From a bacterium (lineage in GTDB: Bacteria; RBG-13-66-14; B26-G2; WVWN01): DNA of 33,845 bases. Location of the stretch: the NCBI GenBank assembly GCA_035529855.1, contig DATKVX010000023.1, forward strand, positions 1 through 33,845. Reading direction: 5' to 3'. The position numbers and the translations under genes are program-made. This document shows positions 18,661 to 23,511 of the stretch, piece after piece. The first letter of the stretch is position 1, and every line of letters begins with the position of its first letter. The notes under the pieces are model-generated. The model made no database searches. It was not told where the DNA came from and saw nothing but the letters and a program-made list of their open reading frames with translations.

Positions 18661-18951
18661 ATGGAAGAGCTGCTGAACGTGGACTGGGACGAGAAGAAGC
18701 GGCGGTTGGTTGATTTGCTCGAGCCGTTAGCCGTGGCCTTCGTGATCTACACCGCGGTAACAAACCCGATCCTCGGTTTAGTTCTGGGTTTCGTGGCTAT
18801 GGCGAAGTGCCGGCTCGAGAAGAATAAGCGCATAGGCAAGATCTGCGTCATCATCAGCTTCGTGATGCTCGGCCTGTGGGTGCTGTGCATCGTCGCGTAC
18901 GTGATCGTTATCGTCGCGGTCACCGCCGCCGGCGGCCTGGGCGGAATTTAA
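18661..18951 (+). CDS. Small two-helix membrane protein, paralog B
   Basis: A 96-residue paralog of the preceding protein: acidic start DWDEKKRRLVDLLEP, first helix (about 24-46), the shared loop CRLEKNKRIGKICVII and a second helix (about 62-90). It follows 33 bases after paralog A, with a strong AGGAGG upstream of the ATG, so the two are a tandem duplication that has diverged mainly in the helices. They may form a heteromer. Function unknown. Confidence 0.7.
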   Translation: MEELLNVDWDEKKRRLVDLLEPLAVAFVIYTAVTNPILGLVLGFVAMAKCRLEKNKRIGKICVIISFVMLGLWVLCIVAYVIVIVAVTAAGGLGGI

Positions 18952-19012
18952 CCCGCCCCGAGTTAACGACAACCGTGTTGAGCTTTCGGCGCGAGCCGAA
19001 GGGAGCTCCGTT

Positions 19013-20146
19013 ATGAAGGTCCACGAGTATCAGGCCAAGGAGATTTTCAAGGAGTTTGGCATAAAGACGCCCCGCGGCGGCGTCGCGACGACGCCCGAGG
19101 AAGCGGAGGCCGTCGCGAAGGAGGTCGGCGGGCCGGTCGCCGTCAAGGCTCAGGTCCACGTGGGAGGCCGCGGCAAGGCCGGCGGCATCAAGGTGGCGCA
19201 GACGCCGGCGGAGGCCAGGGAGGCCGCGGCGCAAATCCTCGGCATGGACATCAAGGGCCTCACCGTGGAGAAGGTCCTGGTGGAGGAGGCGTCCCGCATC
19301 GCGAAGGAGTATTATCTGGGCTTCGTCGCGGACCGCGCCGCGAAGGCCGTAACGCTTATGGCCTCGAGCGAGGGCGGCGTCGAAATCGAGGAGGTCGCGC
19401 GGACCAACCCGGACGCCATCGTCAAAGTTACGGTGGACCCGTGCCTGGGCCTGCACGGCTTCCAGGCGTTCACGGTCGGCAAGAAGCTGACCGGCGACGC
19501 GGGGAAGGCACGCGTCGTCGCCGACGTGTTGTCGAGAATTTATAAAGCGTTCGTGGCGTACGATTGCTCGTTGGCCGAGATAAATCCGTTCGTGGAGACG
19601 GAGGACGGCGACTTCATCGCGCTCGACGCCAAGATAAATATCGACGACAACGCCCTCTTCCGCCACGCCGAGCTGGCGGAAGGCCGCGACGACCTGGCCG
19701 AGACCGAGCTACGCGCCAAGGCCGCGGACCTCAGCTACGTCCCCATGACCGGCAACGTGGCCTGCATCGTCAACGGCGCCGGCCTCGCGATGACGACGAT
19801 GGACCTCGTCAAGCTTTACGGCGGCGAGCCGGCGAACTTCCTCGACGTCGGCGGCTCGAGCTCCCCCGAGAAAATCCTGACGGCGATGGACATCATCATG
19901 TCGTCGCCCGGCGTGAAGGCGGTGCTGGTGAACATCTTCGGCGGCATCACGCGCTGCGACGACGTCGCGACGGGCCTGGTCGCCGCGCTAAAGAAGCACC
20001 CCCTCGACGTTCCGCTCGTCGTCCGCCTAACCGGCACCAACGAGGAGGAGGCGCGCGAAATTTTGAAGAAGGCCGGCATCGAGGCCGGCTCGGATATGGA
20101 CGAGGCGGTCAAGGCCGCGGTGGAGGCGGCACGAGGGAGCGCTTAG
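19013..20146 (+). CDS. sucC: Succinyl-CoA synthetase beta subunit
   Basis: A 377-residue ATP-grasp subunit of the tricarboxylic acid cycle enzyme that makes ATP (or GTP) from succinyl-CoA. It starts MKVHEYQAKEIFKEFGI and has GGRGKAGGIK, EINPF and DNALFRH for nucleotide and Mg2+ binding, then DVGGSSSPEK and VNIFGGITRCD in the CoA-ligase part. Full length for the family. The leader contains a small hairpin (TTCGGC/GCCGAA, 18985-19000) directly before the GGGAG ribosome binding site. sucD normally follows at once; here about 2 kb of MNT-HEPN genes lie between. The last 46 bases of the gene are duplicated at 20907-20952. Confidence 0.95.
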   Translation: MKVHEYQAKEIFKEFGIKTPRGGVATTPEEAEAVAKEVGGPVAVKAQVHVGGRGKAGGIKVAQTPAEAREAAAQILGMDIKGLTVEKVLVEEASRIAKEYYLGFVADRAAKAVTLMASSEGGVEIEEVARTNPDAIVKVTVDPCLGLHGFQAFTVGKKLTGDAGKARVVADVLSRIYKAFVAYDCSLAEINPFVETEDGDFIALDAKINIDDNALFRHAELAEGRDDLAETELRAKAADLSYVPMTGNVACIVNGAGLAMTTMDLVKLYGGEPANFLDVGGSSSPEKILTAMDIIMSSPGVKAVLVNIFGGITRCDDVATGLVAALKKHPLDVPLVVRLTGTNEEEAREILKKAGIEAGSDMDEAVKAAVEAARGSA

Positions 20147-20372
20147 CGGGGCGCGTAAGTATGCGTAAATTAGATTGGGACGAGAGCGGCTCTTTGGAGA
20201 ACTGGCAGCGAGCGGTGCTGGAATTCGCCCGGCGTGCGCGCGAGGAGCTGGGTGACCATATCGTCCGCATCATACTCTACGGCTCGCGGGCGCGGGGGGA
20301 TTATACCGAGGACTCGGATATCGACATCCTGGTGGTCGTGCGGGATATCGACGCCAAGGAGGCCGACGAGCG
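20101..20372 (+). repeat. 272-bp direct repeat, copy 1
   Basis: Runs from the 3' end of sucC through the first 71 codons of the first nucleotidyltransferase gene. It matches 20907-21178 with about nine mismatches (offset 806 bases). The identity stops abruptly at 20372. Confidence 0.92.
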
Positions 20373-20511
20373 ACTGAGTTGGTTAGCGTGGGAGGTTTTG
20401 GAGGATTACAACGAGTTATTTAGCGTCCGGGTCGTTCGGGAGGACGAATACGCCGTGAAGCGGGGCTCCAGTTACTATATTAACGTAAATGAAGAGGGCG
20501 TTGCCGTATGA
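20161..20511 (+). CDS. MNT-type nucleotidyltransferase, copy 1
   Basis: A 116-residue minimal nucleotidyltransferase. The pol-beta-type catalytic motif GSRARGDYTEDSDID carries Gly41-Ser42 and the metal-binding Asp53 and Asp55. Such proteins pair with HEPN proteins; in the MntA-HepT systems the MNT partner inactivates the HEPN toxin by adenylylation. The gene starts 14 bases after the sucC stop, without a clear ribosome binding site, and its TGA stop overlaps the ATG of the HEPN gene (ATGA), the usual coupling of such pairs. The first 71 codons are almost identical to those of copy 2; the rest is only distantly similar. Confidence 0.88.
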   Translation: MRKLDWDESGSLENWQRAVLEFARRAREELGDHIVRIILYGSRARGDYTEDSDIDILVVVRDIDAKEADERLSWLAWEVLEDYNELFSVRVVREDEYAVKRGSSYYINVNEEGVAV

Positions 20512-20903
20512 ACGACGATACTCGTACGGATATACTAGGCAACGTCGAGTTGGCTCGCGAAACGTTGGCCGAAATGCGCGGGGCGGTCGAGCGCGGCCGT
20601 TATAGAATCGGCGTATCGCACTTATACTACGCATGCTTCTACTATCTCCGGGCGTTACTGCTGACAAAAGGCGCCGCGTATCAGTCCCATAAGGGCGTCA
20701 TCGTCGGGTTCAATTTATTTTTCGTCAAGGAAGGTTTAGCGCCGCGCGATATGGGTGCGTTTTTACGGAAGCTGGGCGACGACCGGCAGGAAGCCGATTA
20801 CCGGTTCGGGAAATATAAACGCGAAGACGTAGAGGCCAGAATAAAAAAAGCGGACGCGTTCATAGTGTTCGCGGAGGGGTATCTGGAAGAAGCGTTGAAG
20901 TAA
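20508..20903 (+). CDS. HEPN-domain protein, copy 1
   Basis: A 131-residue all-helical HEPN protein. The typical segments are SHLYYACFYYLRALLLTKG and SHKGVIVGFNLFFVKEGL, then DADYRFGKY-like QEADYRFGKYKREDVE. The RNase-type RxxxxH motif of toxic HEPN proteins is not clearly present, so toxin activity is uncertain; a role as a binding or scaffold protein is also possible. It overlaps the nucleotidyltransferase gene by four bases. It is clearly related to the N-terminal half of copy 2 (both have YQSHKGV and F-x-V-x-EGLA), but at protein level only. Confidence 0.85.
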   Translation: MNDDTRTDILGNVELARETLAEMRGAVERGRYRIGVSHLYYACFYYLRALLLTKGAAYQSHKGVIVGFNLFFVKEGLAPRDMGAFLRKLGDDRQEADYRFGKYKREDVEARIKKADAFIVFAEGYLEEALK

Positions 20904-20906
20904 ACG

Positions 20907-21178
20907 CGAGGCGGTCAAGGCCGCGGTGGAGGCGGCACGAGGTAGCGCTTAGCGGGGCGCGTAAGTATGCGCAAATTAGATTGGGACGAGAGCGGCTCTT
21001 TGGAGAACTGGCAGCGAGCGGTGCTGGAGTTCGCGCGGCGTGCGCGCGAGGAGCTGGGCGACCATATCGTCCGCATCATACTCTACGGCTCGCGGGCGCG
21101 GGGGGATTATACCGAGGACTCGGACATCGACGTACTGGTGGTCGTGCGGGATATCGACGCCAAGGCGGCCGACGAGCG
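20907..21178 (+). repeat. 272-bp direct repeat, copy 2
   Basis: Starts 3 bases after the stop of the first HEPN gene with a copy of the last 46 bases of sucC (here untranslated), then covers the first 71 codons of the second nucleotidyltransferase gene. About nine mismatches to 20101-20372. The duplicated sucC tail shows that the unit was copied from a position next to sucC. Confidence 0.92.
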
Positions 21179-21317
21179 CATATTCCCGTTCGCGCATTAC
21201 GCGTTAACCGAATACGAAGAGTTATTGTTCGCTTCCGTTCTTACCGAAGAGGAATACGTCGCAAGCCAGGCGAGGAGTTTTTATATTAACGTCGCCGAAG
21301 AAGGTGTAGGAGTATGA
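20967..21317 (+). CDS. MNT-type nucleotidyltransferase, copy 2
   Basis: A 116-residue paralog of copy 1 with the same catalytic motif (GSRARGDYTEDSDID) and the same length. Residues 1-71 differ from copy 1 at only a few positions. From ERIFPFAHYALTEYEELL on, the protein has diverged strongly, though the order of conserved positions (E-E-Y, FYINV-EEGV) is kept. The stop overlaps the ATG of HEPN copy 2 (ATGA). It presumably acts on that partner. Confidence 0.88.
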   Translation: MRKLDWDESGSLENWQRAVLEFARRAREELGDHIVRIILYGSRARGDYTEDSDIDVLVVVRDIDAKAADERIFPFAHYALTEYEELLFASVLTEEEYVASQARSFYINVAEEGVGV

Positions 21318-22063
21318 CGGAGGAATTTCGGCAAGAGGTCCGTGAAGATTTAAGCGCGGCGGAGCGGAAGTTTACCTCAGCGGAATTCAATTTATCCCAA
21401 GGAGCGTTCGGCGAAGCAGTCGCGGACCTATATTACGTCTGTTTCCATTACCTCCGGGCGGTATTGCTAACGCGGGGGACGAAATACCAATCGCATAAAG
21501 GCGTCCTTAACGGTTTCCATAAGCATTTCGTCAACGAGGGGTTAGCGGAAGCGGAGTTGGGGAAGTTTCTAAATAACCTTGCGAAAGCGCGAAACGACGC
21601 CGACTATAAATACGGTACGTTCGACGCCGCCACGGTTTCATCGTTCCGCGATCAGACGCTTGCGTTTCGGGATTTTGCGGTGACTTATCTTGGCCAATTT
21701 TCCGATTGGGTACTCGTGTTCCGAGGGGCCCCCGTGCTTTTCGACCTCCTAAAGAATTCGTGGGAGAGTATCCCCGCAATAAAAGAACGGTGGATATACA
21801 ACGGCGTTTTCCACCGCCGCGCCCCGAGCGAATCAGGCTTACCTTCGCAAATAACGGTAGTCGTGTTACCGGATGGTACGGTGAGGTGCCGTTATCCGAA
21901 AAAGTCCGTATTGTTAGCTTTACCCGAATCCCCGCGAGACGAGGCTTTAAGTTACTTGGGTGATTTGTTGGAGGCATTATATATACAACTCGCCGCCGAT
22001 CTTCCGGCGGATTGGCGTAACGACGTATCGATTACCATTGAACCTCGTTACGAAACCGATTAA
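21314..22063 (+). CDS. HEPN protein with an extra C-terminal domain, copy 2
   Basis: A 249-residue protein. Residues 1-133 are a HEPN domain like copy 1 (LYYVCFHYLRAVLLTRG, SHKGVLNGFHKHFVNEGL, NDADYKYGTFD). Residues from about 134 to the end form an additional region not in copy 1: DLLKNSWESIPAIKERWIYN, then a beta-looking stretch (SQITVVVLPDGTVRCRYP) and a final SITIEPRYETD. I do not recognise that region. Codon choice from about 21330 on is richer in A/T-ending codons (TTA, ATA) than in sucC, which suggests a different origin. It is coupled to nucleotidyltransferase copy 2 by a four-base overlap. Confidence 0.82.
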   Translation: MTEEFRQEVREDLSAAERKFTSAEFNLSQGAFGEAVADLYYVCFHYLRAVLLTRGTKYQSHKGVLNGFHKHFVNEGLAEAELGKFLNNLAKARNDADYKYGTFDAATVSSFRDQTLAFRDFAVTYLGQFSDWVLVFRGAPVLFDLLKNSWESIPAIKERWIYNGVFHRRAPSESGLPSQITVVVLPDGTVRCRYPKKSVLLALPESPRDEALSYLGDLLEALYIQLAADLPADWRNDVSITIEPRYETD

Positions 22064-22140
22064 CGCGCGGGCGGTTCCCGTACGAAAAACGTTAATGTGG
22101 AGTGTTACTTAACGTCAACCGATATTAACCCGGAGTCTCT
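22064..22140 (+). promoter_or_regulatory. Leader of sucD with inverted repeat
   Basis: 77 bases between HEPN copy 2 and sucD. ACGTTAA (22089-22095) and TTAACGT (22109-22115) form a 7-bp inverted repeat with a 13-base gap, possibly an operator or a weak hairpin. A GGAG ribosome binding site precedes the sucD ATG. No clear promoter was found, so sucD may depend on transcription through the MNT-HEPN genes. Confidence 0.35.
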
Positions 22141-23016
22141 ATGTCCATTCTGATAGACGAAAATACCAAGCTCATCGTGCAGGGCATCACGGGCCGCGAC
22201 GGCTCCTTCCACGCCGCGCGGATGAAGGAATACGGCACCAGGGTGGTCGCCGGCGTCACGCCCGGCAAGGGCGGCTCGAGCGTCGACGGCGTCCCCGTCT
22301 TCGATACCGTAGCCGAGGCGGCCGAGGCCACCGGCGCCAACACCTCCATCATCTTCGTGCCGGTCGCCTTCGCCGCGGACGCGGTGTACGAGGCCATAGA
22401 CGCGGGCCTGGAGCTCGTCGTCATCATCACCGAGGGCATCCCCGTCGCCGACATGAACAAGATATATCATTACGCCGAGGAGGAGGGCGCGCGCTTCATC
22501 GGCCCCAACTCGCCGGGGCTCATTAGCCCGGGCAAGGCCAAGGTGGGCATTATGCCGGCGCGCATCCACGAGGCCGGCGACGTCGGCGTCGTCTCGCGCT
22601 CCGGGACCCTCACGTACGAGGTGGTATACGCGTTAACGCGGGCGGGGCTGGGCCAGTCGACGTGCATCGGCATCGGCGGCGACCCGGTCATCGGGACCGG
22701 CTTCATCGATTGTTTGGAGATGTTCGAGGCCGACCCGGAGACGCAAGCCGTGGTCCTCATCGGCGAAATAGGGGGCGACGACGAGGAGCGCGCCGCGGAA
22801 TACGTAAAGGCGACGATGTCGAAGCCGGTGGTGTCCTTCATCGCGGGCCGGACCGCGCCCCCGGGCAAACGGATGGGCCACGCCGGCGCCATCATCTCGG
22901 GCGGCGCCGGGACGGCGGAGGGCAAACGCAAAGCGCTGACCGCCGCGGGCGTAGGCGTCGCCGATACCCCCAGCGTCATCCCGGCGATGGTCAAGGAGGC
23001 GCTGGGGGCCGGATAA
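22141..23016 (+). CDS. sucD: Succinyl-CoA synthetase alpha subunit
   Basis: A 291-residue subunit that binds CoA and carries the phosphohistidine. It has the start [21 protein letters not shown], the CoA-binding stretch [14 protein letters not shown] and the active-site histidine in [19 protein letters not shown]. Full length. It works with SucC, encoded about 2 kb upstream; the two genes are separated by four MNT-HEPN genes. The Cys-rich secreted protein gene follows after 39 bases. Confidence 0.95.
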
Positions 23017-23055
23017 ATTAAACCAAAACAGTCATATATACGTCGAATATACGCC

Positions 23056-23511
23056 ATGGCAAGAAAGATAATCATAGGGTATATCGCGCTGGTGTTGGGC
23101 GCGATGTTGGCCTTGCCGGGGCCCGCGGACGTCGCGGCGCAGGACAGCATAACCTGCATCTATTGCGACGGTTCGGGCGAGGTAACCTGCGCTTATTGCG
23201 ATGGAAACGGCACCGTTACGTGTAATTACTGCGACGGCACCGGGAAGATTACGTGCACGTATTGCAACGGGACCGGCCGCATCCGCTGCGCGGAGTGTTT
23301 CGGCAAGGGATACATCTACGACGACGGCAATAGAACGAAGTGCCCGACGTGTAAAGGCGCGGGGAGCTTCCCCTGCGATTACTGCGTCGACGGCAAATTA
23401 TTCTGCGACGTATGCCGCGGTTCCGGCAAATTGACGTGCGTGGTGTGCGACGGTTACGGCGCGGTGCAATGCGCCGTATGCAAGGGTACCGGGAAGATGA
23501 AGTTAAAATAG
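23056..23511 (+). CDS. Secreted protein built of ten DnaJ-type CxxC motifs
   Basis: A 151-residue protein. A signal peptide ([29 protein letters not shown]) leads into a mature part consisting almost only of CxxC units of about 10-17 residues: [72 protein letters not shown] and CAVCKGTG. CxxCxGxG is the zinc-finger motif of DnaJ, which has four; here ten are present, without J domain or substrate domain. Pairs of motifs bind one zinc in DnaJ, so five zinc ions could be bound. In an oxidising compartment the cysteines might instead form disulfides. Partner unknown. It lies 39 bases after sucD; no ribosome binding site is evident. Confidence 0.85.

Follow-up and report, generated by a model that had tools for sequence, protein, structure and literature searches.

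Two MNT-HEPN pairs between sucC and sucD: probable alleles of a Class II toxin-antitoxin module with an exchangeable block

The closest described relatives of the genes reported here are the Class II HEPN/MNT modules, in which a PF05168 HEPN protein with a conserved tyrosine, and without RX4H, is paired with a PF01909 minimal nucleotidyltransferase (MNT); as of 2020 no biochemistry had been reported for this class (Yao et al., PMC7641770). In the HEPN-T type, the histidine of RX4-6H is replaced by aspartate and another histidine is conserved (PMC3710099).

Here we describe two pairs of this kind in the sucC-sucD gap of a 2.62-Mb draft genome (G000). The whole stretch of DNA that was analysed, 33,845 nucleotides, is referred to as the window and is one contig of the 135 in the draft. 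The pairs are probably two alleles of one Class II, type VII-like HEPN/MNT toxin-antitoxin (TA) module within the sucC-sucD operon, with a specificity block that is exchanged between strains. They would thus represent a known kind of module in a new arrangement, and the sequence evidence for block exchange is strong. A literature search for HEPN genes linked with sucC or sucD returned no relevant paper.

Gene layout, family membership and distribution

The coordinates of the locus are collected in Table 1. Open reading frames, their + strand orientation and Pfam matches bear out the claim of an earlier note on this DNA that two co-directional MNT-HEPN pairs split sucC from sucD, beginning 14 bases past sucC, and the four-base ATGA overlap that it ascribed to each pair was found at both junctions (20508-20511 and 21314-21317). 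Its description of four small genes holds for the number, but HEPN2, with its long extension, is not a plain small HEPN. The SucC (ATP-grasp_2/Ligase_CoA) and SucD (CoA_binding/Ligase_CoA) domains are full-length, and both succinyl-CoA synthetase genes are intact. Both pairs exceed the Pfam gathering cut-offs, with E-values of 2e-11 and 1e-10 for PF01909 in the two MNTs and 1e-17 and 3e-11 for PF05168 in the two HEPNs. Directly 3' of sucD, at 23056-23511, lies a gene for a secreted CxxC-repeat (DnaJ zinc-finger-like) protein, which has the same place in the congeners G002 and G003.

Table 1. Features of the sucC-sucD locus, in window positions
Feature	Position	Strand	Description	Basis
sucC	19013..20146	+	succinyl-CoA synthetase beta subunit, 377 aa	Pfam PF08442, PF00549
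Repeat copy R1	20101..20372	+	last 46 bp of sucC, spacer, MNT1 codons 1-71	
Spacer sucC/MNT1			14 nt	ORF coordinates
MNT1	20161..20511	+	minimal nucleotidyltransferase, 116 aa; GSX10DXD at G41-D55	PF01909
MNT1 halves	20161-20373; from 20374		constant, codons 1-71; variable thereafter	maximum-chi-square break, codon 71-77
HEPN1	20508..20903	+	short type, 131 aa, predicted toxin; H61, R93-x3-D97-Y98	PF05168, alignment
Spacer HEPN1/MNT2			63 nt	ORF coordinates
Repeat copy R2	20907..21178	+	96.7% identical to R1; 89.8% to G001	
Duplicated sucC 3' tail	20907..20952	+	final 46 bp including stop codon, between HEPN1 and MNT2	
MNT2	20967..21317	+	minimal nucleotidyltransferase, 116 aa; codons 1-71 as MNT1	PF01909
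HEPN2	21314..22063	+	long type, 249 aa: HEPN domain ~1-128 and C-terminal extension	PF05168
HEPN2 C-terminal extension	~21698-22060		~120 aa, predicted alpha/beta	AF2 model
Spacer HEPN2/sucD	22064..22140		77 bp; holds 3' boundary of variable block	G000/G001 identity
sucD	22141..23016	+	succinyl-CoA synthetase alpha subunit, 291 aa	PF02629, PF00549

The gene organisation would fit a single polycistronic transcript, a reading taken from gene spacing alone. The absence of a clear promoter before sucD, also claimed earlier, agrees with a scan of 18900-23300 for sigma-70-type promoters, which returned none where 1.6 are expected by chance and is weak evidence either way. The spacer before sucD is completely different between G000 and G001, and it could hold an unrecognised promoter.

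The MNT motif GSX10DXD (G41-S42-x10-D53-x-D55) is invariant in 13 sequences, as are R93, D97, Y98 and H61 of HEPN in 12. In place of the RX4HXY RNase motif, the HEPNs carry R-x3-D-Y together with His61; no histidine stands 4-6 residues after R93 in HEPN1 or HEPN2, so that RX4HXY is absent from both. In Pfam the HEPNs match PF05168 and neither PF01934 nor PF08780, and the NCBIfam MntA equivalog scores 33.5 and 30.4 bits, below its cut-off of 60. Judged by domains, GSX10DXD and the conserved tyrosine without RX4H, the modules belong to Class II HEPN/MNT (PF01909/PF05168). The domain pairs thus uphold the earlier designation as MNT-HEPN and TA-like, which had left the class and the missing RX4HXY unremarked. 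For MNT and HEPN alike, the best PDB sequence match is one MNT-HEPN complex, 9xbd, distant in sequence, for which, as for 9xbc, a literature search found no accompanying paper. In 9xbc, phenylalanine occupies the position corresponding to the tyrosine of R-x3-D-Y, which suggests that this tyrosine matters.

That sucC and sucD are nearly always adjacent held true in a wider set: the gap is 150 bp or less in 94 of the 107 genomes that have both genes on one contig and strand. Within the genus, G001, labelled Candidatus Zixiibacteriota and the closest named relative of G000, has the order sucC-MNT-HEPN(long)-sucD (96% and 92% amino acid identity to SucC and SucD of G000). G003, with a SucC 91% identical, reads sucC-MNT-HEPN(short) up to a contig end 33 bp after HEPN, and its sucD starts another contig; the sucC tail is absent from those 33 bp. 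In G002, an N gap ends just before the sucD ATG and the assembly holds no sucC. G004, of the same order, has sucC and sucD 435 bp apart, with no MNT or HEPN reading frame; a decayed pair was considered for this spacer and dropped, as it contains neither an open reading frame nor a recognisable remnant. G005, of the same class, carries a clearly different, unrelated MNT-HEPN pair in the gap, by eye of the same subfamily as the pair at G000:C58. In the remaining phylum the two genes lie at most 10 bp apart or overlap by four bases.

This comparison of related neighbourhoods, which the earlier note had proposed, thus found a pair at the same site in G001 and G003 and a gap without MNT or HEPN in G004. 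Read errors beside insert-free relatives, or an artefact of one genome, are excluded for the insertion itself, since two congeners and G005 have one as well. The insertion is inherited within the genus (G001, G003). Because G004 keeps sucC and sucD without the module, sucCD can do without it, which counts against strict addiction. sucC and sucD are thus seldom interrupted, and at least three of the separate interruptions, two of them by MNT-HEPN, are due to TA-like modules.

Other occupants of the gap were also seen. In the unrelated genome G014 it contains an HTH_17 antitoxin-like gene and a ParE-like toxin gene with an in-frame stop (L028 2365-2906), in G237 a gene for a 23S rRNA intervening-sequence protein (L142 244-660), in G089 a HIT-domain gene (L143 183-626) and in G052 7.6 kb of other genes. 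Additionally, G000 has a second SucC/SucD-like pair of 515 and 302 aa near citrate-synthase-like and aconitase-like genes (L095 1363-6873, G000:C44); by eye it resembles citryl-CoA synthetase/lyase and could bear on a reductive TCA cycle.

Elsewhere in G000, seven of the eight MNT-HEPN loci whose neighbours were read have co-directional genes on either side, a count with no chance expectation beside it, which is only suggestive of a preference for lodging in co-directional gene strings. Metabolic neighbours of these loci are malic enzyme and ALDH, acyl-CoA dehydrogenase and APS kinase, and enoyl-CoA hydratase and biotin carboxylase; ATP-sulfurylase, upstream, and FolE2, downstream, are among them too. 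The position of the pairs between two subunit genes raises the idea of a domesticated regulator, which would modify succinyl-CoA synthetase or its mRNA and make flux through the TCA cycle depend on the nucleotide state; metabolic regulation is known for enzymes derived from HEPN/MNT, the modifiers of glutamine synthetase among them (PMC3710099). We consider this very improbable. A dedicated regulator would be expected to be conserved, yet no gene of the locus is less conserved than HEPN, the enzymes named above beside other pairs are unrelated ones, and the pair in the gap of G005 is unrelated too.

A constant half and a variable block

Within the genus, sucC and MNT codons 1 to ~71 are mostly 85-98% identical at the DNA level; for the flanks on both sides together, with the stretch from the sucD ATG onward, the figure is ~85-95%. 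After codon ~71 the identity of MNT falls to 50-60%, and the whole block of MNT C-terminal half and HEPN is ~40-60% identical; at its 3' edge, identity between G000 and G001 rises from ~40% to ~90% at the sucD ATG. In a maximum-chi-square scan, each of the six MNT pairs had its break at codon 71-77, and for five of them the value lay above those of all 500 permutations. Base composition breaks at the same place: third-position GC in three species is 90% in sucC, 78-87% in the N-terminal half of MNT, 49-65% in its C-terminal half and HEPN, and 90% in sucD. Of four copies of this MNT, three show a significant internal drop; among seven control MNTs no drop reaches significance, though two are borderline. 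High HEPN divergence is not the norm between G000 and G001, a possibility rejected by a six-locus control: orthologous HEPNs from six loci elsewhere share 79-94% identity in these genomes, against 46-52% at sucC-sucD. These comparisons show, at the level of sequence, that the C-terminal half of MNT and HEPN behave as one variable block, apparently replaced as a unit between conserved flanks.

A second site has divergent HEPNs as well. In G001 (L130 1092-3365, G001:C91) and G003 (L132 1186-3462, G003:C75), two MNT-HEPN pairs lie within an acyl-CoA carboxylase operon, in the order carboxyltransferase, pair, enoyl-CoA hydratase, pair. The HEPNs of both are only 48-54% identical between the two genomes, whereas the flanking genes are far more alike; the first pair is conserved at its start, and similarity then declines through MNT.

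In an AF2 model of MNT1 (mean pLDDT 92), the catalytic strands span residues 34-40 and 54-60 and are followed by a helix at 65-83, a strand at 87-93 and two C-terminal helices; the break falls in the helix 65-83, past the catalytic core. In the Legionella complex, the equivalent helix, alpha2, and the alpha2-beta3 loop of MNT touch HEPN, a role taken by helix alpha4 in two other systems (PMC11586414). By analogy with this Class I relative, the variable part of MNT is likely the predicted HEPN-binding part, which would explain its moving together with HEPN. The model of HEPN2 has a mean pLDDT of 83, lower in the extension; the extension gave no Pfam, PDB-fold or viral match, and a relative turned up only in the G001 protein of this locus.

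The variable block might simply reflect fast divergence under relaxed constraint, the module being a selfish passenger in a highly expressed operon. In agreement with this, the gap elsewhere holds the G005 pair, the decayed HTH/ParE genes, the 23S rRNA intervening-sequence protein and the HIT gene, and in G004 435 bp without reading frames. We judge it improbable nonetheless, as reading frames, ATGA overlaps and catalytic motifs are intact in three species, and neutral drift gives neither an abrupt boundary within a gene, nor a coincident break in composition, nor long and short types that recur across species.

An anti-phage role, in which the pairs form an abortive-infection device and the variable block tracks phage diversity, also deserves weight. 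Defence genes typically show variable specificity blocks flanked by conserved sequence, as seen here, and both MNTs match the PADLOC family PDC-S09 (5e-22 and 2e-20). However, PDC-S09 is only a candidate family, the HEPNs have no PADLOC match, and no further defence gene was identified beside the pairs. We regard this role as unlikely, though somewhat less so than mere drift; it is compatible with a TA mechanism and not exclusive of it.

The direct repeat and the conflicting histories

Like the sharp boundary within MNT and the allelic exchange, a direct repeat of 272 bp shared by the two pairs (R1 and R2, nine mismatches) had gone unremarked in the earlier note; it runs from within the 3' end of sucC to MNT codon ~71. 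A 35-mer of the sucC tail has two exact occurrences in the window, against none in 100 shuffled versions. Eight codons are touched by the nine mismatches; the change is synonymous in six of them, I/V in one and E/A in another. The single difference in the sucC tail, read in the sucC frame, is synonymous, and the notion that it was a nonsense mutation marking a non-functional relic was dropped for that reason; both copies look like working alleles. Past the repeat, MNT1 and MNT2 are 42% identical and HEPN1 and HEPN2 37%. Since the second pair bears part of sucC, it derives from a copy already standing behind a sucC gene, and two independent insertions are ruled out. Another tandem MNT duplication was seen in G000 at L093 4769-5780 (G000:C6), where a 300-bp repeat, 98% identical, recurs 712 bp apart next to ATP-sulfurylase; a HEPN nearby is interrupted by a frame break.

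The tandem arrangement is known from one genome only, the 135-contig draft, and the mismatch pattern fits a merge of two strain alleles in vivo and equally one made in assembly. In the latter case two strains with one pair each, short or long, were joined end to end, and no cell has both pairs. The 3.3% difference between R1 and R2, mostly synonymous and extending to the sucC tail, is what working alleles of different strains would give, and two congener assemblies break at the locus (G003 33 bp after HEPN, G002 with its N gap before the sucD ATG). Against an assembly join stand the absence of an N run at the junction, the quality of G000 (97% complete, 0.4% contamination) and the identical run before the first difference, which at 36 bp is not k-1 for any of the usual assembler k-mers. 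We hold such a join to be rather unlikely, yet the most serious of the alternatives. Under it, the insertion and the allelic variation remain real; the latter stands whether the tandem arose in vivo or in assembly.

Phylogenetic trees of the parts of the locus disagree. That of the repeat region places R1 and R2 together (bootstrap 90). In the HEPN tree, HEPN2 and the G001 protein, which have the C-terminal extension in common (44% identical), form a group (UFBoot 97; four-taxon bootstrap 100), and monophyly of HEPN1 and HEPN2 is rejected (AU p=0.004); the nearest relative of HEPN1 is the short HEPN of G003, 52% identical. The C-terminal half of MNT alone gave an unresolved tree (bootstrap 55). 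These histories are drawn from four sequences, with three congeneric genomes informative, so that direction and donors are not nameable. As the HEPN types group across species, the long and short types predate the species, while the flanks share the species' history. The comparisons show that the constant half of MNT (codons 1 to ~71) has, as far as sequence can tell, the same history as sucC, and block recombination is the simplest account of the conflicting trees.

Proposed mechanism and comparison with known systems

For two alleles of a Class II, type VII-like TA module, we envisage the following mechanism. The pairs would be transcribed together with sucCD; MNT would be made first, and the ATGA overlap would couple translation so that HEPN is produced in step. 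MNT would then nucleotidylate (AMPylate) Tyr98 in the R-x3-D-Y of its own HEPN and keep it inactive, and where MNT is lost or fails, the freed HEPN would arrest growth. The tandem would have originated when the short-type allele already in place gained a second, long-type one behind it, which brought along 46 bp of sucC and the constant half. We infer toxicity, Tyr98 AMPylation, cotranscription and cognate specificity from the features of the genes and their relatives.

More tentatively, and with less confidence than we place in the allelic reading itself, we suggest that the gap is a polymorphic TA locus. A fixed nucleotidyltransferase core might serve as docking or recombination arm, while diversifying or balancing selection might maintain interchangeable blocks of MNT C-terminal half and HEPN as long-lived cross-species types, which would stack in tandem wherever two of them meet. 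If true, the locus would swap specificities in a way analogous to variable target-recognition domains, with a type VII-like module as its basis and a TCA-cycle operon as its anchorage. The swapping of C-terminal half and HEPN on a constant catalytic core serves as a natural experiment to tell which region of MNT recognises a given HEPN and, if confirmed, would make cognate specificity directly testable. The locus also illustrates how such modules may persist, lodged in core-metabolism operons with allelic types common to several species.

With Class II HEPN/MNT (PMC7641770) and HEPN-T (PMC3710099), the pairs share the two domains, MNT upstream with an overlap, GSX10DXD, the conserved tyrosine without RX4H, and aspartate in place of histidine with a conserved histidine elsewhere. 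Unlike Class II modules described so far, they lie between sucC and sucD, their MNT consists of a constant and an apparently exchangeable half, allelic pairs stand in tandem, and the long type has an undescribed C-terminal domain. The type VII TA systems HepT/MntA (Class I; Shewanella SO_3166/SO_3165 and Legionella HEPN-MNT) have both protein folds, the nucleotidyltransferase motif and a candidate acceptor tyrosine in common with them; here, in contrast, the HEPN family is PF05168 and not PF01934/PF08780, RX4HXY is missing, and the activity is a predicted one. PADLOC PDC-S09, a candidate for defence only, has the MNT match (5e-22) in common and leaves HEPN without one. The structures 9xbd and 9xbc, a HEPN domain protein with a nucleotidyltransferase of the same subfamily, are distant in sequence and share the R-x3-D-Y motif, with Phe for Tyr in 9xbc.
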